Shown here in pieces: positions 1 to 59,082 of a DNA stretch of 64,000 bases. The number at the start of each line of letters is the position of its first letter. The stretch's first letter is position 1. The DNA comes from Nymphaea colorata (taxonomy: Eukaryota; Streptophyta; Magnoliopsida; Nymphaeales; Nymphaeaceae). The stretch lies in assembly GCF_008831285.2 (NCBI RefSeq), contig NC_045145.1:8494802-8558801 (forward strand), in the 5' to 3' direction. Both the position numbers and the translations under genes were made by a program. The notes under the pieces are model-generated. The model saw nothing but the letters and a program-made list of their open reading frames with translations. It had not been told where the DNA came from and searched no databases.

Positions 1-2470
1 TTCCATCTTGGGAGCTAACAGCCACTGGGTGCATTCTGGTCTTTTTGTGTGTGACACTGGTTGGACTCTCATTCTTGGTTAATTTTAATCCAATTGAGCT
101 TTAGATGTATCTATGTAATCTCATGACCCATTTGGGACTTGGGCCATTCTAAAGGTTGGGAATTCAGCTTTTCATGAAAATAATAAGAAGGTGATATGTG
201 GGGGTCAGTGTAGGTTTCCTCATGTACGGCACGAAGGTATACATGTTCAGACTTATTGTTTAGAGACACATTTTGAGTTTAAGAACATACTCATTTTCTA
301 ACATCTTTTGTACCAAAGGATTGAGTACGATCAGAGATAAAATTTCTTCTCATAAAAAACAACGTGACTTGACAAGCTTGGGCTTTGGGGCTGAAATTTA
401 GCTGATTATAGTCTCCCATGAAGGAGTAGGCAATACACCCAAAGGTCTATGTGTAGTCATATTGAGAATCCTTCCCAAACAACTTTGCATAGGGAGTTTT
501 ATGTTGCAGATCAACCAAGGACAATTTATTAATAGAATAAATACGAGTTTTAAATACATATATGCAAAAATAAGTTGGTAAATTAGCATGAAAAATTATA
601 TGTAGCCCCATTTCTACCACATAATGATGTTTCCTTTCTGCTATCCTATTTCGTTGGGAAGTACAAAGACATGTTAGCTATCAGCTAATGCTCTAAGGAT
701 CAACAAAGGATGATAAGTCTTTTCTCACTAAGTTGCCCGCACAATTGCTGTGAAAAAATTTAGTTTTCCTTTCTAGTTTCCCTTCAATAATTTTTTGAAA
801 AGTTAATTAGAAGCACGGCAAAATATATGATTTCTTCATCAATGGGAGAATCTAAGAGAACCTACTAAAATGGTCAACTGGAAGATCTGATAAATCATTC
901 ATGTGAAGAACAAGATGCCGACTAGCCCCAGAGATGACCATGGAGAAATTCATGGGGGCCCAGTGGCCTTAAAAGCATATTTAGGAAAGGGAAAGCAATG
1001 CATTGGCCATGAACATAAATCAACTTAGCATCATGCATCTTAGATAAGAGTTGGAACAAAAATGTCTCAAATGAGAGTGTCATACATAAAAAATGTCAAA
1101 GTAGACTATTCAAAGACATGAAAGAGTTGCTCATTCAGATCTAAAATATGCATATTATTAGACCCTTGAAAAGAACTATTACTGTCTTGACCACCATGAA
1201 GCTGCATTGGAGTGGACAAGACACAGAGGCCTTCCGTATTGGGGCATGTATAAAGAGTATTCCCCATCTACAAACTCCTAACAACAAAATCATTAGCCAT
1301 AAACTATACCCTCCAAGAGTTATCTCTGGTAAGGTCCAAAATCGACTAAGTTTTTTGAAGTGCAAACGCGAGTCACATTGTGAGAATAAGACAAGAGGAA
1401 CTGAATGGTAGATAGAAAATATCAACATGTTTAATCATCATTCATTCACCATTACCAACTATAATAAAATCCTGTCCAATGTAAACAGGTTGATCTTGCA
1501 TATGTTGGTTAGACTTTACCATGTGATGAGGACACGGCACCTATGTCTAGGTACCACTCAGTATTAGATGCACTTTTGGTAGTATGGGCATCATGATCTG
1601 AAGTAGCACCATTTCTAATCAATAGAGCTATTGTCATGAAAGCTTTCAAAAAGTTCAAACACTAATTATTGAATTTACAACAGTTTCTTGGTAATCATGA
1701 CTCGATTGAATTGGCAAATCCAATGTCTATGCCCTCTTTGGGTGACAAATGTTATAGAGGATATCCCTAAACTGGATAATAGTGCTGAGAGAAAACACGT
1801 TGAGCCATTTTTCTTGAGACATAAGCATGTCATACAGCTCATAAAAAAGAGAAGCTGTATGGCAATTGTATTCAACGTGATGAAGGATTTGTAGTTATTT
1901 GTGGGTCCATATAGGGCACATTAAAAAAAGTTTGAATCCGGATAACATGGTTTACAATACAAAGAAGTCATTAATAAATTTCATATGATGAAGATGGTCA
2001 GCCATAGAGATATTATTGTTTTTGACATTTTGTAGATCTCATTTCAATTGAATAGTACACATGTTGGACTGGGATGCGTGTTATTTTTCAAGTGTTAACC
2101 ATGTTTCATGAGAAGTATAGTAGTATGGTGAATGAGTTGAACAAGAATCGGTTTGGTGAACACAACCTCTAGCCAGCTTAAAGCCAATTGGTCTGTATGT
2201 TTCTATTCAAAAATGCTGGATTGCACTTGGATCAATCACTACCAATAAATTGAGATGGAGAAAGGAATGAGCAATCAACATATCACTTTAGGTCCTGACT
2301 TATCATAATGTTCTCAAGTTGCGAATGCCATAGGAGATGGTGCAATCAAGCTTGAATAAAACCATAACATGGAGAACGTATTCCATTGCTCATGGGAACA
2401 TTAGGCATAATAACGGGAGTTGAAAATGCTGACATATTAGATGAATGCTCTTCAGCCACGGAAATGAGAG
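1..2470 (-). pseudogene. Ty1/copia gag-pol remnant no. 1
   Basis: This is a decayed copia polyprotein that reads right to left. Around 2,100-1,900 a gag-like stretch is readable (HASQSNMCTIQLK and MADHLHHMKFINDFF). Near 1,800 there is ELYDMLMSQE, as in the UBN2 gag family. Near 1,540 WYLDIGA corresponds to the WYLDSGA protease site, with Ser replaced by Ile. Integrase follows at about 700-400, with AERKHHYVVEMGLHIIFHANLP and then a KTPYAKLFGKDSQY motif. Frameshifts and stops interrupt every domain, so no product is expected. Reverse transcriptase and the 3' LTR would lie to the left, outside the window. The domain order gag-PR-IN identifies copia rather than gypsy. Translation was done by eye, so domain edges are approximate. 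Confidence 0.82.
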
Positions 2471-2485
2471 ATGGGTTTGATACCA
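2471..2485 (-). other. Retrotransposon primer-binding site (tRNA-Met type)
   Basis: The minus strand reads TGGTATCAAACCCAT, a close variant of the initiator-Met tRNA complement TGGTATCAGAGC used by plant LTR retrotransposons. The bases just before it on the minus strand end in CA, as an LTR end should. It lies directly upstream of the copia gag remnant, in the right place and orientation. Confidence 0.7.
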
Positions 2486-3171
2486 TGAAAATAAAAGCAT
2501 GAGAGAGCAAAAAAAGCAAAGACAATATGAACTAATTAATGTGGTATTGCTGGAGCAAAGCTTGTAACCGTTAAGGTATATCTCTCTACTTCATAAAATG
2601 GCTAGCTATAGTAAGTAATCAAGAAGGCAGTTTACAATTCAAATTTGAAAGACATACATATAGATTCCATTTGATAAGGCTCTTTTCTGTAATGGCTCTC
2701 TTAGACTTAGGCAATTTCCTTTTATCTTCATCATCGTTATTGTAGGTTGTCATGTGCCACACTCTCTTCTACCAATGAATCAATATTATGAACAAATTGA
2801 AGAACATAAATCGAACTTCCTCGAATATACAACATCCATAAATAAGTAGTAAAATTGGACTACCTTATGATATCTCATTTTCATTCATGTAAGCTATATT
2901 TCCCCATCTCATGGCCATCGTGCTAGCATAAAACTTAGTCGCTATAGAAAATCCATCTTAATCATCCTAAACTAAAATAAGCTAGGTATGTTAAAAATTA
3001 TTGAAGATTATAAAAAATAAGAAGCAGGTGGTCCTAAAATTCTCTTTCTCATGCAATTCGGAGGCTTTGTTCAGGTTACCATTGCTCATGGATGATGACT
3101 ACTAGCAACTCCACCTTCATTTTTGCGCCACAAGTCGGCTATGTTTTGTTGGAGTTTCTTACCTTGCATTG
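2486..3171 (-). repeat. Probable 5' LTR of copia remnant no. 1
   Basis: This stretch without coding capacity sits between the primer-binding site and the next repeat. By position it should hold the 5' LTR of the copia element to its left. Its inner end (TTTTCA at 2,486) fits an LTR terminus. I could not find a matching outer TG end or a second LTR copy, so its left-right extent is inferred. Confidence 0.4.
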
Positions 3172-3745
3172 TTGTAATCACCTCAAATTTTTCCAAAAGA
3201 CTATGTTATTTTACCCAAGTACAAAACCCAAATTTAGATGCAAGATTCAAATCCAAAATCCAACTCTCAGATCCAAATTAGATCCAAAACCCAAGTTTAG
3301 ATCCAAATCAAGCATTTAAAACTCAAAATTCAAAATCAAGTTCAAAACAACAAAGTCCGGTGCAATAAGTGTCTCTGCGCATGCTCAAACCTCTCCTTTG
3401 TTTTACGCTTCGTCCTCGCACCAAAATATGTTTTTGAAGCTTAACATGAAGCCGACCACTCTTTTGTAACGAAAAAACAGTTTTATACACTTTTTAAATA
3501 AATTAAAAAAGAGTCTTTATGTTTTAATACAAAAAACCCTTATTTCATAAAAAGTTAAAAAAATAATAAAAAAATAATAGTTTCACGTGTCGCGCGATGC
3601 ATGCGACCGCACACTATCGCTACAGTGCGCGTCTCGCCGGTGCTGGGAGCTTTTGCACTTGACGTGCAACAGCATCCCAGCCGGGGCCTGCAACAATGCA
3701 GGCCCCCCTTTTCTTGCAAAAACCACCCCCAAGGGGTGGTTTGGC
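3172..3745 (+). repeat. LTR-like repeat, copy D
   Basis: The first bases, TAATCACCTCAAATTTTTCC and what follows, match the start of the LTR-like units at 7,030 (minus) and 7,833 (plus). After that comes a stretch of degenerate AAACCCAAATTTAGATCC repeats, an AT-rich block, and a GC-rich CpG block (3,585-3,745) with several GCATGC-type motifs. The right edge contains a small palindrome (ACCACCCC/GGGGTGGT, 3,722-3,740) and joins the copia integrase reading frame to its right. It looks like an LTR or related unit that truncated or interrupted that integrase. Confidence 0.5.
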
Positions 3746-5846
3746 ACATAATAAGGAGACTTATTTTCCAAAATACTCATAGGTAGTTGATTTATGATGT
3801 AGACAACTGTATATCATGCATCATACTCAAAGCTGTCTCTACAATATGTCAGTGTTTTCACTTGGCTATCCCATTTTGCTGAGGAGTATGGGGGCAAGAT
3901 ATTTGTCTAGTTATCCCATTATTTCGAGATATTCAGTAAAACCTTGGGAAAGATATTCTCGTCCACCATGACACTGAAAATGCACAATATTAGATGAATA
4001 TTCGAATTAGGGCATGAAAGTCTTGGAATTGAAGACTTCAAATTTATGTTTCATAAAACGTATCCAAGCATAATGCAAGAAGGAATCAACAAAAATAACA
4101 TAGTAACACTGCCAGACAATGAAGGAATTGGGGCAGGTCCTCATACATCAAAATGAATACTCTCAAAAGGTTTAGAAGCTCTCTTATTCAAAATATGAAA
4201 TGGAAGGACATGACTCTTACAAAGTTGGCAACTTGAGCACTTACTGACTTCTGAGATAGACTCTAAACAAGACCATGGAATAAGGTCATCTGCAACAAGT
4301 TTTTTAATAAAATTCTAACTACAATAACCCAAATGATCATGCCATAAATCAAACTTATTACATTGAAACAAATTCAAGACATTTGGACTTTGAATCTACA
4401 GTTTGGACTAGAGATTCAAGAAGGAACTGTTATACCAATCAAAGAAATGACTAGCTGATGATACCAAGGCTTCCTTGAAAATGTATATATTCCCTCGTCA
4501 CTTTCTCTTAGTGAACATCTTCTTCGTTCGATGGTCCTCGCATACACAGAGTAGGGAGTGACTTCAATAGAAGAATATGTATCACGAACAATTTTAGACA
4601 TAGAAACAATATTTTTCTTTATATTAAAGAAAGTTAACATTGGACAAAGGATAACAAAGAAATTGACATGGGAATTTGTGCAATCCTAGTATGAGTAATG
4701 GAATGATATGATCCATCTCCTTGACAATAGATCCTCTTTCAAAATAAGGGAATAAGTTAGACAATTTACTTGTATCTCTAGTGATGTGTGTAGCAGCCCT
4801 AGAGTCTAGGTATCATTGTCCTTGAACATTTTGTTTTAAATGCATCCTTGAAAGACCTGTCATAAGTACTTGGTGCACATCATTCGGCACACATTTAGGC
4901 TGCCCTTGTGTTGTCAACATTTCTCTCTGCTTGTTCTCTTGTTTGTATGTCTTTCCCTTATTTTGTGGATTGTACTAACAATCTACATTTACATGACCTT
5001 TCTTGTTGCATAGGAAACAAGTGAGAATTCTCCTATGATTCTTGGTTCCTAGAGGGATATTAGGAGTTGGTTAAATTCCTCTGCCATCCTGACCAAAACG
5101 ACTATGCCCTCATCCTCTTTGGTAACCTCCACTTCTATGACCATATCCACATCTACTGTCACTCACTAGCACGTTGTGATAACCTTCATCACTAATATTA
5201 GAGATTTGTTTTCTCTTCAACTCATGCTGAAGAAGTTTAGCCTTGAGTTTTTCAAAACTAGGAAGAGTAGGAAGAACTTCTAAAGCAGTACAAAAAATAT
5301 CATATTCTGGGCCTAGCCCACTCAAAATCTATTGAACCTTATCACGGTTTGAAACTGCATTCCCAATCATGACAAGTTGATATGTGATCCCCTTCATTTG
5401 AGACAAATATTCTATAGCGGATTTTGAAATTCTCGCTTTAATTGTAGAACTAACACCTCTGAAACCTAAGAATGTGTCTACAAGTATGTCACACAACTCT
5501 ACTACACAAAGATCATCAGAAATAGTAGCAAATACTTCATCTGAAAGGGTGGAAGTGATATATGCTACGAGAGAATGGTCAGTCCTAATCAACTCAACAT
5601 ACTTTGGATGCCACTCTGTTGTGATAGATGACTCTCCTTTATCATTCTTCACTTCCTAAAAGATAAACTATGGCATGGCAAGGGAAATTGCAAGGGAAAT
5701 TCCATCTAGATGCCCAAACAGATCATGGCTCTTTATAAAAGGTACTACTGTCATTTCCAAGTCAAATAATTGGTATGGGTAAACTTTTGGAAAATAAGTT
5801 GTGTCAAGAAACTACAAGAAATGCCATTGTTAGAAGTAGAATCCAT
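3746..5846 (-). pseudogene. Ty1/copia gag-pol remnant no. 2
   Basis: This is a second copia polyprotein on the minus strand. The gag start codon lies at 5,846-5,844 (MDSTSNNGIS) and is followed by TNYLTWK and HDLFGHLDG, both hallmarks of copia gag. The UBN2-type gag continues through LSGLGPEYDIFCTAL near 5,320. A perfect CCHC zinc knuckle, CFLCNKKGHVNVDC, is at about 5,015-4,974. A protease site, YLDSRAATHI, is near 4,810. The pre-integrase WHDHLGY and Cx2C follow near 4,330-4,240. Integrase SCPHTPQQNGIAK is near 3,890 and NKSPYYV near 3,755. At least several stops and shifts are present. The frame ends abruptly at a GC-rich repeat, so RT and RNase H are missing. Confidence 0.87.
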
Positions 5847-19639: not shown

Positions 19640-22350
19640 TCAAGGGAGATTTAAAAACAACAAAGTATCGTAGTTTGTTCAAACTATATGATAGAAGAAT
19701 GATAATGTTTTTTTTTTTTTTTTTGCTTATATGAATGATGTTCTAAATGGATCTTTTAAAATCTCGCATAAAAAATTGGGACTTATAAGCATAAAGAACA
19801 TGAAAAGGTTTCACAAAAAGGTGTAATACTTAATTTAACAGAGCTAGTTTTGATAAATGTCAGTCTTGCATAATGAAAAGATAGAAATAAAACTCTTTCT
19901 ATCAAATTCATGTGTGCCATTGATCAATTGAAAATTATCCATATAGATATCTATGAACTTTTCAACATCTAAATTTCATAATGTATGTTATATTTTATAA
20001 TGTTAATGGTTTATTTCTCAAGATATAGGTACCTCTCTAATTACCCAAAAATCTAAAGTGTTTGATAGATTTAAATTGTATAAAGCTGAGGTTGAATGGA
20101 AACTTAGTTCATATATCAAAATAACAAGATCTAATATAGAAGATTTACTATACCTTTAATGTTTCTAATACGCATAGAATTAAAGAACAGAATGCAGACC
20201 TTTGAACATCAAAACAAAATGATGTTACAGAGTGGTTTAACATAACCCTATTTTTCTTGGCAGGTGTGCAATATTCAAAGCATTATGTGGTGAAGATATG
20301 TATATAGCTATATATACTTTGAACATAGTACCTTGCAAAGTTGTTCCAATATGGACTAGTATGAGATCATATTTGGGTCATCTCAAGAGATAAAGATTTG
20401 TGGCACATAAAAAATCCTAGATCTAAAAATGGATCAACCGGATAATAGGTGTGTATGATGCATACCTATTAGATATATATCCAAAAAGATCCAAATGTTA
20501 TGGGTTATATGCAGGGCTAATTGGGAGTGAAGATGTGGAGGTCCTAAAAAAAAATTCAACAGTGAATGAACTGATTGTATTGATGACCAATTTGATTTTT
20601 TTTGTTGGCCTTAATTATCCAAATTGATTGGCGAATAGTTGAGCAATAAACCAATTGATTTTGATATTGATACTTTCCAAATTTTGACAGGTAACAAGTG
20701 GTATCACGATACATTTTTCAGAAAGGAGAACTGTATTTTTTTCAAGTAGACCTTAATTAAATTATACATAATGTAACCTCTAGTGAAGCAATAAATTCAC
20801 ATGAATAATCAACCAGGTAAAAGGCCATAGATGACACAAGACAACATGTTGAATATACAGGGGTTGAGGAAATCTATAAAGCAGTTAAAACAATTGATAA
20901 ATTTAATGCTAATCTTATAGCAAAAGGTTTTTTTTAAAGAGAAAGAACTCATTACAATGGAAACTTGATCACTAATAGCTAAACATACTTCAATGAGAAT
21001 AGTTTACCACTGCTGCATTGTATGATATGGAAATTTGATATTTAATATTAGCATTGACCTCTCGATGGTGAGTTAAAAGAAAGAATCATTATAGAACAAC
21101 CAGAAGGCTATGTCATTGACGAAAATAAAAACAAACTATGTAAGTTGAAAAAAACCTTGTATTGACTAAAACAGTCTTCCAAGTAGTGGGATTTTGCTTT
21201 GCATAAAGCCACAACAAAACTGAATATCAATTAGACCAATGTCTCGATGGCTCAAGAAGTGGAAGCTTGTTTTGTATATTCTCAAGTATACGTTAATGAT
21301 ATTTTGTTGATGAGAAATGATATTGGGAATCTGTTCATATATTCTTATTGTATATTGATATTATTATGTTAACATGAAGTTAATTGAATAATGATTAAAA
21401 GATAAGGTGAATTATTCTACATACTAATAGAAAAATTACTCAAGACAGAAAACCAAAATTTCTTAGTTTTATTCAAAATGATGCATTAATTATATAGAAA
21501 GTAGGACCTGAAGCTAATTAGAATTCTTGTAACTAAACGTATTTACTTAAGCAAGAGTGGTCACCCGGTAAAGGACAAAAAAAATAAATAAATGTATTCT
21601 ATGCTCAGGTTGCTGGTAGTTTCTTGTATCTGACATTGTGTACAAAAATATTATATACAAGCTTTCTTTTAGGTCTTGTGAGCACATATCAAGAAAAACT
21701 AAGATGGCCTCATTGCTGTTAAAGGAATATTTTGAAATATAAAATAAATAAAAAAGATCGAAAGGTTTTGTGAGCACATATCGAGAAAAATTAAGATGGC
21801 CTTATTGCTGTTAAAGGAATATTTTGAGAATATGAAAGAAATAAAAAAACATCGGAAGGTTTTGTGAGCACATATCAAGAAAAACTAAGATGGCCTCATT
21901 GCTGTTAAAGGAATATTTTGAAATATAAAATAAATAAAAAAGATTAGAATAATGTTTTCAAGCTAAGAAACTAAATCTAATTGGATATTTTAATGTTGAT
22001 TTTTTGCTTGTTGCAAGTATGAAAATAAATCTACATCTAGATGTATATTTTTTGAGGCGGAGCAACTGCTTTGGTTCAGGAAGAAACATGGTTGTGTTGC
22101 TCAGTATATTTAGAAAATGAGTGGGGAGGTTGTAATGACATCCCAACTGTTTTGTCACCTCGGTAAATCATTTATGGAAGACCTCAAGAAAATCATTGGT
22201 AAGACATGGGGTTGTCTCCTAAAACAAATACATAATGGCAAAATATAGTTACGTTCATGAAATAATTAAAAAGAATGAAATTACAATAGACTGATAACTG
22301 ATGTCATTGTTGTCTCCCAACTAAGTGGGTCGCAGCTGAGATTTATATAA
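19640..22350 (+). pseudogene. Ty1/copia pol remnant no. 3
   Basis: A heavily decayed copia pol on the plus strand. Integrase traces (FSRYRYLS, ELKNRMQTFEHQN) occur near 20,010-20,220. CGEDMYIAIYTLNIVPCK at about 20,290 is the end of the integrase core. RT follows near 21,060-21,310, with GELKERIIIEQPEGYV, LCKLKKTLY and YVNDILLM; the last corresponds to the YVDDILL active site, with the first Asp changed to Asn. Downstream, YAQVAGSFLYLTLCT at 21,600 matches the RT-RNase H connection. At about 22,000 CKYENKSTSRCIFF matches copia RNase H. Many stops and shifts make it clearly dead. Confidence 0.82.
21672..21948 (+). repeat. Three tandem copies of a 92-bp unit in copia no. 3
   Basis: The unit begins AGGTYTTGTGAGCACATATC and ends AATAAATAAAAAAGAT. 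Copies begin near 21,672, 21,763 and 21,857. Copies one and three are almost identical, while the middle one carries several shared differences. The unit is a piece of the copia polymerase-RNase H linker. Confidence 0.9.
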
Positions 22351-28409: not shown

Positions 28410-28945
28410 CTGCAGTTCCTTGGCTCTCGTTTTCTGTATGTGTGTGCATGAATGTGTGTGTGTGTGTGTGTAGGGATGAATGGAGAAATTCAAATGAGAG
28501 AGAATGCAAAAGGAAAAGAGGAAACAACGTGAGTTCCAATAAAAGTTACTCTTCCTCTTTCCTTAAGGGGGGCATGGCTGCTTTGAGACATAGATGGTCT
28601 TACGGCACAACCTTTAACTCAAGTCTTGAATGGATGATAGCAAAATCATAGGCATAAACTGTAGAACTAGTGGTTTACTGCAGTTCCTTGGCTCTCGTTT
28701 TCTGTATGTGTGTGCATGAATGTGTGTGTGTGTGTGTGTAGGGATGAATGCAGAAATTCAAATGAGAGAGAGAATGCAAAAGAAAAGAGGAAACAACGTG
28801 AGTTCCAATAAAAGTTACTCTTCCTCCTTCCTTAAGGGGGCCATGGCTGCTTTGAGACATAGGTGGTCTTACGGCACAACCTTTAACTCCAGTGTTGAAT
28901 GGATGATGGCAAAATCATAGGCATAAACTGTAGAACTGGTGGTTT
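28410..28945 (+). repeat. 268-bp tandem duplication just 3' of the CASP-like gene
   Basis: Two copies, 28,410-28,677 and 28,678-28,945, differ at only a few positions. Each contains CTGCAGTTCCTTGGCTCTCG, a (TG)n tract, CCAATAAAAGTTACTC with a possible AATAAA poly(A) signal (about 28,538 and 28,808), and GGTGGTTT-like ends. The first copy starts only 78 bases after the stop codon, so it probably lies in the 3' UTR. Open frames inside are by-products of the repeat. Confidence 0.93.
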
Positions 28946-35686: not shown

Positions 35687-38600
35687 TTAAGAAGTCGGCT
35701 GCACCTTGTCAGACTCAAAGAAGTGAGCCACAGCAGAATACAGCTGTTCCTCCTCAAATGGCTTTGATACATAACCATCCATGCCACATTTGGTGCATTC
35801 CTCATGCGTTGCTTGAATGACATCAGCTGTCATTGCCAGTATCGGAACATGCCAATGAGAAATGCCTTCATACATTTCTGATGAAGTTGCACCAGATTCA
35901 ATCTGCTCATTCACCATGTTTTCAGTATGTCTTACCTGCCTTGTTGCTTCAAACCTGTTCAGTGATTAAGTGGCTTAATGTTACGAAAAAATGGAGCTCA
36001 TTGAGATATAATTAAGTGAATAATCTTAAAAACAGAAGATAGAAGTAAAAAGATGTGGAATGATAGAAAAGCTAAAGAGACTAGGTTGATACCCATCCAT
36101 CTCAGGCATCTGAACATCCATGAAGCAGGCATCAAATTTGTGAGGTGGTTGAAGCAGCTTTAAAGCTGCTTTCCCACTTTCTGCACAAGTGACATTAGCT
36201 CCATACTTCTTAAGAGCACCAGCAGCCACCCGACGGTTAATAACATTGTCATCAACTACCAATATTTGCTTGCCACTGAGTAAACTTTGGAGCGATGTCA
36301 ATGGCTGTCTCTTCTCTTGTTGGCTTTTGCTTCCCATGCCGAAGGCTTGTTGGAGGCATGCTGCTATCATGCTTGCTCTGAGAGGCTTCATGATTACAGT
36401 ATCAACATATCCCATTGACTTGGCATCATCAAGCTCACTTGAACTTATAGATGTTGCTAGGAGGAACATTTTTGGAATGTCTGGAACTGCAAGGGAATTG
36501 GATCTGCCATTCTGCTGAAGCTCTTTGAGAAGTGAGGGAAATGCCATGCCAGTTTCCTTAGCCCAAGCGTCTTTATCAACGAGCACCATGTTAACATTCT
36601 CTGAGGCACTGAAACAAGCAACGACAACAAAAAAACTCACCAAATAGAATAGAGGAACAGCAAAGCAACCCTGATATAGGCATATGAGTTGTAAAAGTAC
36701 ACAAAACAACTTTATTTATTAATGGAGATGAGGCATATGATTTAGAATTTTCTTGTCACTTGTTACTTGAGAAGTACAAAGCAATCTGTAATGTATTTTT
36801 AACTGGAAAGTGCAGTAAGGGCACAATTAGACTTTGAGGTGAAGAACAGCAATTCCTAGCCTTTCTATTCTAATGAAAATTTGTGTTTGATTTTGAACTT
36901 TGGACAGGCTTTTGGCTTCAGGTAGAATGCATAAGATTTTCTAGGTCACATCATTGTTGAAGCAAATTTCGAAACTAGAAGAGTGCAAGTATCATATTTG
37001 CACAAGAAACAACTGAAGTTCAACATTGCGCACCTGGATATAAAAGATAAAGCTGATTTTAGACAATCTGCAAGCTCAACTTGAATGCCTAATCTCTTCA
37101 AATGGTACTTTGTGACCATAGCGCGTATGCTTCTGCCATCAACAACTACTGCCCGCATTCCTTGGAATTCTGAAGTCACAGAGTCAGACTGTTGCCGCTT
37201 TATGTCTTGTGAGTTTGCTTGTCCCCTAGTAAAAGCAGCAGTGAAAGCAAACGTGCTGCCAACCTTTGGTTCACTTGCAAAACCTATTTCCCCACCCATA
37301 AGATCCACCAAGCACTTACTGATGCTCAGTCCTATACCAGTTCCACCATACGTACGGGATGTAGAACTGTCAGCCTGCATGAATGGCATGAAAATGCGAC
37401 TTTGTGCATCTTTAGGGATCCCAACACCTGTATCCTCGACAGTAACTAATAAATTTATAGGGCCGCTAGCTTCTACTTGTGAACTCATGCTTAGTGCCTT
37501 AAAGCTCTCCCAACTTTTTCGTCTATCAACTACTTGATATCCGCTTAGTGTGTAAAAAGAATCTGTTCCTCCAATGCACAAAGAATCTTGTTTCTGTTTA
37601 AATGCCTCACAGCTGGCACCTGACAAGGTCCTCAACTCCTCAGCAAGATGCACTGAGACAAAAACATGCCCCTCTTCTGTGAACTGCAATAAATTACCCA
37701 ATAATTTTACATGCTGAATAATCGAGTAATCTATTGGAAAAGCAAACTATCCCATTTGAGGGTTGGAAAAAATCTAGTAACCTTGATTGAGTTGCCCACA
37801 AGGTTGGTGATTATCTGACGGAAACGCCCTGGATCACCAATAAGAATCTCTGGAACTTGATTAGAGACATACACAGCCAGCTTCTCTCACCAAAAACATG
37901 AAGGAGAGAGTTTAGGTAAAGACAGGATGATTCGGCCAGTACAGGAACAAAATTTGCAAAAGAAATTTGAGATTACCTCAATGCCTTTGTCCTGTGATGT
38001 TTCTGCAAAGAGTGACACAACGATATCCAGGATAGTACGAACATCAAATGGAACAGCCTCAAGCTCGAGTCTACCAGATTCTATCTTTGCCTGGTCTAGG
38101 ACTTCATTTATAAGAGCTATTAGAGTTTTCCCACTAGCTTGAGCTGTTTTTGCAAAATCTTGCTGAGTTGCATCAAGATCAGTGTCCATAAGCATCTGCA
38201 GCATACCTGCATCAATAAAATAAAGAATTGGCTATCCCTAAAAAACTATATGACTGCAAAGACCAACATCATGGTGCCTATGTGTATGCTCTTTTCTAGC
38301 AAAGTCATGCAGAGAACACGCACACACATGGAAAGTAGCAGAAGTTACCTAGTACTCCATTCATTGGAGTCCTGATCTCGTGAGAAACAGTTGCTAAGAA
38401 CTGTAACATCACAGAATTCGTTAGTCCATAGAAAATAAAGAAAAAATCATAAAACAAAATTCATTTCATGGTTGATGTGGGTAAATGGTAAAACAGTGGA
38501 TCACACTAAGAAGGTTTCTCCATATAATTAACCATAAAAGAAAACATTCCAGAGGTTTTTTTACATTTGATAAGCAACCCGATGAACAATTACCGTCTGA

Positions 38601-55566: not shown

Positions 55567-55574
55567 AACAATTG
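55567..55574. repeat. Left 8-bp target-site duplication of the hAT element
   Basis: AACAATTG here is repeated exactly at 59,075-59,082. Eight bases is the standard target duplication of hAT transposons. Confidence 0.85.
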
Positions 55575-56184
55575 TAGGGGCGGAGGCAGGATTTTTTTCA
55601 GGGGCGGGCCAAACGGTCCAACGAACTATAATATATTATAACATATATATATATATATATACACAGTCACACACTTTAGATAATATTTGCAAACCACAGT
55701 ATAGTAGAAGTGAACATATGTCATATATAATTGCCCATGTCATGAACGTGAAGCACGACTTGTCCTACGACACATTTAATAATTGCTTGTGTCATTAGCA
55801 CAAAGTGCGATATGTCATCAGTAGATAAGGTGCTATGTTTCTATTACAGTGACGTAAGTGTGAGCAATGAACATAAGGTGGACATACAAATATCACAACT
55901 CAAAATATAGCAAATAAATACATCTATAAACTCCAAAACCAAAACATATTACTTACCTTAAACAAGCAGTTGTGTATTCTTTCTATGTAACACAATCAGT
56001 TTTTGCCTTTATTTTTATTAAAAATAGTTACACATCATCATTCATTCACCTGCACAATAAAATATAAACAAAAACTACATCATTTATTATTGAAACTGAA
56101 TAATGACTCAAATAAACATTAACATAAAAATGATGTAACAAAATACTTTACCTATTGCAATTGTGCTCTACGACTTTTTATCTT

Positions 56185-57104
56185 TTAAAAGACATCAATA
56201 ATATCATTGGAATCAAACATTTGAGAAATTTCTTTCTCAATATACAAAAGTAAACAATCTGTAAAGAATTCATCCTCCATTTTGTTATGCAACATTGTTT
56301 TAATAAACTTCATAGTAGAGAATGCCCCTTTTGTGGTTGCAGTGGAGACATGAAACGCTAGAATGAGAGTAAGCAACCTGTATACATAAGGATATCATTC
56401 ACTTTTTCTACTATGTACCGTTGCTTGACATAAATTTGATAGTGTACCCAAAGTTCTGAACTTTGCTTTTCAATCATTTTATCTATGTGTTTGCTTTGAT
56501 GACTTAAGTCATTAAATGCTCGCACATTCATATTATGAGGTGAATTTTGACTTGTCCCTTCATGAATACAAAATACACATGTTTTCTCACTACCACCCAC
56601 CCTCTTCCAAACTCTGAATCTTTCAGTAATAAATGGACTGTCATTTGAATATGGAGTACTGAAAAGATAACATGGCAAACAATATGCATTATTTGTCTTG
56701 GAAAAATATTCCAACCATGAAAATTTTTGAAACCATGAAGCTTGACATTTACGAGGATTATTTGAAGGACTTGACACTGGATATCTATGAAGCTTGTGCT
56801 GATATGACCCATAATTAATATACGCTCGCCTAACTTCATCTCTCTTATTTACTAATATCTCTCATATAGGACGTCGCAACCCTGGATCACACATGATGCT
56901 TTTTGCAGTTTCAATTTTTGAATACTTAAAAGGTGGAGAATCTGAGTCAAAAAGAACAACATCAAGAGCTTTGAAACTAGAACAACCAGCATTTTGGTTT
57001 TCTCCCTCTTGGTTTTGTCCCCCTTGGTTTCTTTGCTCTTGGTTTTCTTCCTCTTGATCAATAACTTGTTTTTTTGTGAAACAATTTTGAATATTTTTCT
57101 TCAT
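56185..57104 (-). pseudogene. hAT transposase, internally deleted
   Basis: It starts MKKNIQNCFTKK near 57,104 and runs through a Glu/Gln-rich linker. A TTF-type zinc finger region follows at 56,777-56,500: SWFQKFSWLEYF, then NAYCLPCYLF with its CxxC, and the HIDKMIEKQSS segment. The next recognisable part is the C-terminal hAT dimerisation domain at 56,376-56,185: VSTATTKGAFSTMKFIKT, then LHNKMEDEFFTDCLLLYIEKEI. The DUF4371 and catalytic RNase H-like middle, normally several hundred residues, is absent between 56,480 and 56,380. There are also frame breaks. Family members run to about 700-800 residues, so this cannot be an active transposase. Confidence 0.88.
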
Positions 57105-57253
57105 CTTGTCAATAAGCTAACATGAAAAACCTGAAAATTTAAAATAGACAATAAGATTTAAACATTTTAGATATATACAAACCTAAGAAACATAGCACAA
57201 TGCAAGCAACATAAGTTGGCAGGAAATTGTTAAGGTACATGTTCAGTTTGTAC

Positions 57254-57822
57254 CTCATAAATCTTCTCGACATAAGCCTCTTGGCCCTTTTTAGAAGCTC
57301 TCTTAATGTTTCTTTCTGCTATTTCCTTAGGGACATCAAGCTCTCTAGCTTTTCCCAAGATAGCAGCAAGAACTGAATTTGAAACTGGATTGGGCCCCCC
57401 TTTGCTCACTCTGAATCCATGCATTAGGAAATTTATCCCAATTAGAGGTGTTTCAATCATCTTGATAACAATGTGACAAGTAAGACAATAAAACAACAAT
57501 TAATGAAAGATAACCAGAAGAAAGACAAATATCACTGGAAAATTTCACAAGAAATATTTTCCTCAAGTCAATAAGTTAAACAAGAACAATATGGTTATAA
57601 AACATACTTTAGCTACATGCAGAGCATATATTATTGGATGTTTCGAATTTAATTGATGACTCAATAACTTTACTTCTATAAAGATGAAAAACAACTATTA
57701 TAGTAAATCTGAAAAGCATAACAAATGAATAATTAATCATATGCTTAGACTGACGCAAATACTATCTCCTTCCCAATTTTCCCATATCGCTTTGCCTTAT
57801 TTGCATCTTGTGCTCCCTTCAT
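57254..57822 (-). pseudogene. Captured YebC/TACO1-type exons inside the hAT element
   Basis: Two exons and their 344-bp intron. Exon one, 57,822-57,755, encodes KGAQDANKAKRYGKIGKEI and ends GC-GTCAGT. Exon two, 57,410-57,254, opens after ATTCAG, encodes VSKGGPNPVSNSVLAAILG and RELDVPKEIAERNIKRASKK, and ends GAG-GTACAA. The phases fit (GC plus A gives Ala), and the joint reading frame of 75 residues has no stop. This is the N-terminal part of the YebC/PmpR/TACO1 family, whose plant members (such as At2g25830) are organelle-targeted and help ribosomes through proline-rich stretches. The transit peptide exon and the C-terminal domains are absent. Retention of the intron indicates capture as genomic DNA. 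Whether it is transcribed is unknown. Confidence 0.9.
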
Positions 57823-58001
57823 CTAGCACAAGACCTTAGATGAAATACCTAATGCATTTTTCCTATGCATTTAACATAGAAAGGCATTAACAAGAAGCCA
57901 AAAAGCTTAATTTCGACTAACTATATAAGCATTTGGATGAAGTCAACATTCAATACCATCACTAGTATCATAGCCTATGAGATATATCAACTTCATGCAC
58001 C

Positions 58002-58250
58002 TTAATTGCTCACTACCTTTCCAATAAATGAACAACCACTAAAGGCAGAGTCTTCTAAAGAATCTACATGACCAGAAGATGAAGATGATTCAGATGATTC
58101 TTCATGATGCACATGACAAGAACATAATAAATGGGAAAGGACAACGTTTTGACAGAGTATGTCCCTACACCCTCCTGTTGTTGTGCCAACATAATTGAAA
58201 AAGTTCATACAAATATAGGTCCCTAGAAAATATTCAATTTTTCTAAGCAT
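58002..58250 (-). other. Unrecognised Ser-rich frame inside the hAT element
   Basis: An open frame of 82 codons with an acidic Ser-rich part (EESSESSSSSGHVDSLEDS). The frame passes through GGAAAG-GTAGTG, which could be a donor site, so this may be another captured exon. I know no matching protein. Confidence 0.3.
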
Positions 58251-58599
58251 GTTTTTTGGAGAAAAAGAAGAGGAAATATCACATTATTTACAAGATTTGG
58301 AAAAACTAATAGCAGCCTAATGACAAAGCATATAACTCAACAAATGCCTAATGAAAACACTATTGCAAAGGCATGGGGGAAGTGATAGCTTACAGCGAAG
58401 AGCAAGGGAGTTGGGATTCATAACACAAATCCTCAAACTGAGCAAGAATGTTATATGTGCGTAAAATCAGACTACTATAATTTATAATACTATATAAATT
58501 AACAACAGAAGTTGGGGAAAAATGAATTCCTTGAAGTGCTAGTAAAGGGGCAGAGATTTGTGAGAAAGAAGTGAGAACCAACCTGTCAGCAGAGAGAGG

Positions 58600-58990
58600 G
58601 CCCCCACCCCTATGTTGTGGTTGTGGGCGAGGGTAGGGAGGGAGGGAGCCAGCGAGAGAAAGGGCGTGAGAGAGAGAGCCATGCGTTGTGATTGTGGGCC
58701 AGGGCAGGGAAGGAAGGAGCCAGCGAGAGAGAGGGCCGTGCTATGGTTGTGGGCCAGAGAGGACGGGAGCAAGCGAGAGAGAGGGGCGAAATAGGGTAGG
58801 GCAAAGAGGGAGTGAGCGAGAGAGAAAGGGGCGAAAGACAGAAAGAAGGTCAGCCCAGAGAGAGAGGGGCGAAAGACGGAAAGAATGTCGGGCCAGAGAG
58901 AGGGGGAGAGAGCAAGGGAGAGTGTTATGTGTGAAAGTGGGTCGGGCCAAGACGATCCGCGGGTCAGGCCAAGAGGAGCGACAGGTCGGG
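58600..58990. repeat. Subterminal direct-repeat array of the hAT element
   Basis: ATGTTGTGGTTGTGGGC, then GCGTTGTGATTGTGGGCC, then GCTATGGTTGTGGGCC each precede a GAGCCAGCGAGAGA-like run. After these, GGGGCGAAAGACAGAAAGAA occurs twice and GGTCGGGCCAA-like words occur three times. Open frames on both strands here are products of the repeats. Such arrays are typical transposase-binding zones in hAT elements. Confidence 0.75.
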
Positions 58991-59074
58991 CCAAACTAAA
59001 AAAAATTAATTTTTTCAATATAATTTTTTTTCCTATGTTGACCCAGGCGCCCCCCCCCCCCCCTTCCGCCTCTA

Positions 59075-59082
59075 AACAATTG
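59075..59082. repeat. Right 8-bp target-site duplication of the hAT element
   Basis: AACAATTG, identical to 55,567-55,574. Confidence 0.85.

Follow-up and report, generated by a model that had tools for sequence, protein, structure and literature searches.

Gene capture by hAT elements has already been published for maize Ds, for Hatvine-6 of grapevine and for Pack-hAT elements, and the element described here is a case seen in unusual detail. According to the consulted part of PMC2528002, copies of Hatvine-6 in grapevine share their transposase and terminal inverted repeats (TIRs), while the remainder is variable, with frequent matches to exons and introns of the host. The hAT copies of the present family likewise share transposase and TIRs around a variable, host-derived remainder; unlike for this family, however, that part of PMC2528002 describes neither a stepwise history nor a scar, and the likeness to Hatvine-6 is one of description only. 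The Pack-hAT elements of maize and rice, as set out in the consulted sections of PMC8903248, agree with ours in having 8-bp target site duplications (TSDs), hAT TIRs, a non-autonomous structure, captured coding DNA and clustered copies. They nevertheless form a separate element set, and here the capture adjoins transposase remnants and the slots of longer copies are filled as well. Maize Ds2 and Ds-l4, in the extract of PMC3260210 used here, resemble our element in carrying gene-derived filler with retained introns from a parent on another chromosome, but gene filler in maize Ds is called rare in that extract, whereas one family here holds pieces of YebC, of a NagX-like locus and of several other loci. 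Animal Pack-TIRs, including the frog element Pack-hAT-N8_XT, show in the consulted part of PMC8277862 a gene piece inside a hAT element, copies with distinct TSDs and microhomology at breakpoints; those elements are mostly single-copy gap fillings, whereas here one capture spread and was later, on our preferred reading, cut down or overwritten. The consulted text of a 2026 review (PMC13317346) contains no match to 'hAT'.

The window, by which we mean the whole stretch of 64,000 nucleotides under analysis (C8:8494802-8558801), was placed against a searched genome of 407.8 Mb, and the features of the element within it are collected in Table 1. As the first-pass annotation had noted, the element is flanked on both sides by the same 8-bp duplication, has inverted ends (TAGGGGCGGAGGCAGG.. 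and TAGAGGCGGAAGGGGG..) and contains a deleted transposase. The TIRs are imperfect (TAGGGGCGGAGG / TAGAGGCGGAAG) and are mostly CAGGGGCGGAG-like in other copies. Its ends are common to many genomic copies, as that annotation required of a true element, with the 3' end found in at least 44 rows of genome matches (the best 40 of 381 candidates were scored). For the transposase of the family, a first genome-wide pass gave 197 candidates, of which the best 40 were scored. An 8-bp TSD, short TIRs and a transposase with a hAT dimerisation domain place the element in the hAT superfamily, while a captured piece of a gene whose parent lies at another locus, a non-autonomous structure and movement together with its cargo place it among Pack-TYPE elements. 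It is non-autonomous because its transposase carries both a deletion and a stop. The longer copies of the family (L011-L014, L021 and L022) agree in their transposase part and ends but vary in the region between; L014 contains both PF14291 and PF05699, and at the transposase position of L021 (4774-6549) there is a 592-aa open stretch, the longest frame among the 12 elements scanned.

Table 1. Features of the hAT element and of its captured segment (window positions; L007 is the parent gene)
Feature	Positions	Strand	Remarks
Target site duplication AACAATTG, left	55567..55574	.	8-bp, exact
Non-autonomous hAT element, 3,500-bp	55575..59074	- (strand of transposase remnant)	TIRs and TSD
Terminal inverted repeat and subterminal sequence, transposase 3' side	55575..55610	+	Other copies end similarly
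Transposase C-terminal remnant (hAT dimerisation region, Dimer_Tnp_hAT)	56185..56391	-	PF05699, Pfam E 1.2e-6
Internal transposase deletion junction	56451..56460	.	1.3-1.5 kb absent relative to L011-L014
Transposase N-terminal remnant	56451..57116	-	One in-frame stop (56862-56864); ORFs; DNA identity to longer copies ~90%
Intron end and splice acceptor before transposase exon, common to copies	57131..57164	-	Upstream sequence varies by copy
Junction of YebC intron 4 and hAT sequence	57191..57213	-	Block recurs as putative scar in YebC-less copies
Captured YebC/TACO1 segment	57191..58357	-	Parent L007 3237-4437: intron 2 end, exon 3, intron 3, exon 4, intron 4 start; 86.9% identity with gaps
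Captured YebC exon 4 (157 nt)	57254..57410	-	TACO1_YebC_N match
Captured YebC exon 3 (62 nt)	57755..57816	-	
Captured YebC exon 1 end and intron 1 start	58355..58437	-	Parent L007 1634-1716, 90% identity
hAT 5' region, GA-rich repeats and second terminal inverted repeat	58438..59074	-	
Target site duplication AACAATTG, right	59075..59082	.	8-bp, exact

YebC/TACO1 is an organelle translation protein. We consider it very probable that the locus is a Pack-type hAT element in whose ancestor a genomic stretch of the host YebC/TACO1 gene was copied into the intronic region preceding the transposase exon, and that the family then spread in trans, gained pieces of other loci and, in one lineage, came to hold only a scar of the YebC piece.

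The captured exon region has six matches in the genome, including the window itself, and one of them is the parent. This gene, whose existence the first-pass annotation had predicted, lies at C1:29.08 Mb (L007) and contains the only PF01709 match found (C1:29083992-29084297), preceded by an exon of the N-terminal domain; the borders of its exons 1 and 2 were read by eye. In the element, parent positions 1634-1716 are joined directly to 3237-4437 and parent exon 2 is absent, the whole captured stretch (57191-58437) amounting to ~1.25 kb and including part of parent exon 1. TACO1_YebC_N matches the window exons with an E of 4.3e-9 (37.2 bits, cut-off 36). The two phase-matched exons (57816-57755 and 57410-57254, minus strand) and the intron between them have intact GT/AG borders, as originally read, and the joint frame is stop-free over 73 codons, or over the 75 first reported if the in-frame ATG AAG just upstream is counted. 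Since intron 3 was copied entire and none of the capture borders falls at a splice site of the parent, the template was DNA, in keeping with the earlier proposal that the hAT element took up a genomic, intron-containing piece of the host gene. The presence of this intron also leads us to reject a retrocopy. A host YebC duplicate struck by a chance hAT insertion is rejected as well: TIRs and TSD lie outside the YebC piece, its breakpoints recur at other loci, and the flanks of the element, into which a full YebC gene might have been expected to continue, contain no YebC match, those found in the genome lying outside them. We regard either origin as barely conceivable. One element of the earlier proposal has to be abandoned, namely that the capture replaced the middle part of the transposon. 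The captured DNA lies instead upstream of the transposase exon, and a capture at the transposase deletion is rejected, the two sides joining at 56451/56460 without filler.

The search for further copies with the same cargo, which had been suggested together with that for the parent, yielded five other elements that hold the capture entire or in part, making six carriers with the window. Three of them (the window, C1:12.15M and C9:5.95M) share the same outer breakpoints, at parent positions 1634 and 4437, and in all three parent 1717-3236 is absent, the match in C9:5.95M resuming at 3248; C7:23.42M, C1:42.49M and C10:7.98M hold the capture in part only. Clean and distinct 8-bp TSDs are present in four of the six carriers (AACAATTG in the window; GTTGCATC, CTTTTTAT and CCCACATA, read by eye, in others), while C1:12.15M sits in a TG repeat that makes its TSD ambiguous and C9:5.95M is truncated at one end. 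Because three carriers besides the window have clean duplications of their own, the capture moved after it arose, probably with transposase supplied in trans. Outside the exons, and with gaps left out, the three long copies differ from the parent by 6.1-7.3% of substitutions and from one another by 5.4-6.2%, a star-like divergence that suggests, on the strength of these alignments, a spread soon after capture. The partial carriers are mosaics: C10:7.98M retains the internal YebC join, followed by sequence of another locus (L017), C1:42.49M runs from an L035 piece (reaching at least base 1741) through L017 to YebC ahead of the transposase, and C7:23.42M combines pieces of three separate loci from two chromosomes. 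The C1:12.15M carrier (L005) additionally holds, at ~2387-3495, a 1.1-kb insertion within captured exon 4, where a 7-bp overlap of the flanking matches suggests a duplicated site.

Judged from the aligned copies, the capture position is a slot upstream of a common transposase acceptor that is filled by other loci in other copies. The acceptor block precedes the transposase exon in 21 of 23 aligned rows, with CAA in place of CAG in L022; the exceptions are L016, which begins further in, and L034, whose form is shortened. Upstream of it we distinguished at least six different sequences by eye, those of L022-L028 and L031-L034 differing from the YebC type. L017 (C2:19.573-19.575 Mb) was captured in three YebC carriers (L010, L008 and L009) with differing borders, and L018 is present in one YebC carrier; L018 is NagX-like at E 9.4e-6, with 25 bits against a model cut-off of 480 bits, and a PDB search with it gave a best E of 0.75. 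Matches to L019 and L020 occur in two long copies (L014 and L021), those to L036 in L011, L013, L014, L021 and L039, and those to L035 in scar copies and one YebC carrier. YebC and the NagX-like locus are the only donors with an identified protein, and both lie in sense orientation. Scans of the chosen slot and donor open reading frames with Pfam and NCBIfam returned nothing over a family cut-off except YebC and transposase families; L017, L019, L020, L035 and L036 are therefore not proven to be genes, those of L035 and L036 having lain outside the scan. The slot filling is not all genic: in L011 it includes a dispersed repeat that has numerous matches, most of them at 70-83%. Two further observations concern these donors. 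A 192-bp stretch of the L017 part in C10:7.98M also matches C4:18267445 at 77%, and the hAT family has a second large capture in a scar copy at C7:14.6 Mb (L038, 1606-3037), where several collinear pieces amount to ~1.2 kb of the L035 locus.

Among the 19 aligned rows without YebC exons, seven have a YebC-like intron block at exactly the position of the YebC/hAT junction and 12 do not. A 17-mer of this block is exact in two of the seven, has one mismatch in one and two mismatches in four. Genome-wide, the 17-mer occurs at 13 sites with at most one mismatch, against none for the reversed control; these are the parent, four YebC carriers, seven YebC-less hAT copies, which overlap the seven aligned rows only partly, and one unplaced site. 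The last (C7:21130567, L037, one mismatch) lies outside any recognised element, and comparison with three elements and with the YebC gene gave no match. Our best reading of the block in YebC-less copies is a scar that remained once the YebC piece had for the most part been deleted or overwritten. In this regard, DNA matching L035 meets the block at a common CATAT in L011 and L013 (C8:4.17M, C13:13.3M), and L035 matches stop at the identical base, 1521, in L011, L013, L014, L021 and L038; in L012 the L035 piece is short and lies further upstream only, and L029 and L030 resemble L011 by eye. The scar copies may thus derive from a carrier like C1:42.49M, whether through overwriting or through loss of the DNA between CATAT sequences, and it is in this one lineage that the YebC piece would have shrunk. 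It could also be that the block, of 17-25 nt, is native hAT sequence that served as a long microhomology for the YebC capture, and that the YebC-less copies never had YebC: the block adjoins common hAT intron in the seven aligned YebC-less copies, and the tree does not root the order. This would, however, require a 17-nt identity with the YebC intron past the switch point; moreover, the block is absent in 12 of the 23 aligned rows, pieces of L035 and of YebC coexist in one carrier, and only CATAT is shared where L035 meets the block. We consequently hold a native block to be rather unlikely and prefer the scar. Trees resolve little here, as the YebC carriers form no single group and the order of events is not fixed: scar copies and L016 cluster together at 90/99, a value that the tree tool itself does not rate as firm support, and the short row of C1:12.15M (147 bp) is placed at 95/80 with L028, a copy with neither YebC nor scar. 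At the level of titles and opening lines of abstracts, we found no description in the literature of a scar of an earlier capture, which is no proof of absence.

Related copies acquired fragments of other loci in the same slot. The capture most likely took place when the gap left by excision was repaired and the repair switched templates where short sequences were shared. Such sequences are seen at some joins (CATAT between L035 and the block, and TAGTTG, read by eye, in C1:42.49M), others having no clear microhomology. A composite origin, in which host DNA was trapped as two neighbouring hAT insertions moved jointly, has been put forward for Pack-TYPE elements in the consulted sections of PMC8903248, which cite local pairs of hAT and of PIF elements in maize. 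Against it, the capture is internal, between hAT 5' and transposase sequence, and the pieces in C7:23.42M come from three loci on two chromosomes. Seven donor loci (3.4-8 kb each) were also read for hAT ends with the terminal 450 bp of two copies as query, and none was found, the only match being a simple AT repeat in L018. Because the captures are internal, come from separate loci, join in some cases at short shared sequences and stem from donors in which no hAT ends were found in the stretches read, template switching in gap repair fits better than joint mobilisation, which we deem improbable. This hAT family repeatedly took up pieces of host loci, and its parents, common breakpoints and short scar allow an order of captures to be proposed. 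It therefore offers a specific example on which gene acquisition by cut-and-paste elements, through template switching in gap repair, can be tested.

The captured exons could, in principle, contribute to a chimeric product kept by selection, through splicing to either the transposase exon or an adjacent gene. The splice sites of exons 3 and 4 and the frame are intact in the window copy, and the GT donor of exon 4 faces the common transposase acceptor, so that splicing from the captured exons to that acceptor is possible on paper. Read from the sequence, use of the first acceptor would lead to a stop after nine codons, whereas a second AG (ttag/CTT) would preserve the frame; the transposase remnant beyond has a stop and a large deletion. 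Exon and non-exon divergence are alike in the pairs among the three long copies (6.4/6.1, 6.0/6.2 and 6.4/5.4%), and the exon 3 acceptor is lost in both other holders of that exon, C1:12.15M and C9:5.95M. Relative to the consensus, 28 changes in four copies are nonsynonymous and 2 synonymous, a nonsynonymous share of 75% being the expectation in the absence of selection (two-sided p 0.019). The parent departs from the consensus by two changes, both of them synonymous. The count left out C7:23.42M (40 nt of exon) and C10:7.98M (neither exon 3 nor exon 4). We do not read the nonsynonymous excess as positive selection, because the set is short, changes at sites 112 and 119 are common to two copies and were counted twice, and C1:42.49M contributes exon 4 only. 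The stop-free frame of the window copy is unsurprising: when 20,000 copies were simulated, each with 10 random substitutions but without indels, 63% retained an open frame. Given the similar exon and intron divergence, the 28:2 changes, the acceptor losses and the simulated open frames, we see no indication that a YebC product has been selected for, and purifying selection on the captured exons is rejected by the first two of these. Nor does the segment look like a functional YebC/TACO1 gene, which would have a complete coding sequence under purifying selection; its N-terminal domain is partial. This pattern of decay, as read from the copies, speaks against a functional protein, and we judge a selected chimeric product highly improbable. 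The case also cautions against taking splice sites and an uninterrupted frame within an element as evidence of a gene.

A more speculative idea, to which we give little credence, is that the 5' end of the transposase is modular, the common acceptor letting captured fragments act as 5' exons or promoter, in which case refilling of the slot might alter expression or aid escape from homology-based silencing.

Elsewhere in the window, a tRNA scan found no tRNA. A cytokinin-receptor-like histidine kinase has exons on the minus strand at 36026-37743 (Receiver_CRE1 at E 9.3e-27, Response_reg and HATPase_c), which identifies the DNA as that of a plant, and there are two tandem repeats, one of two copies of a 269-bp unit (28410-28945) and one of about three copies of a 94-bp unit (21671-21941).
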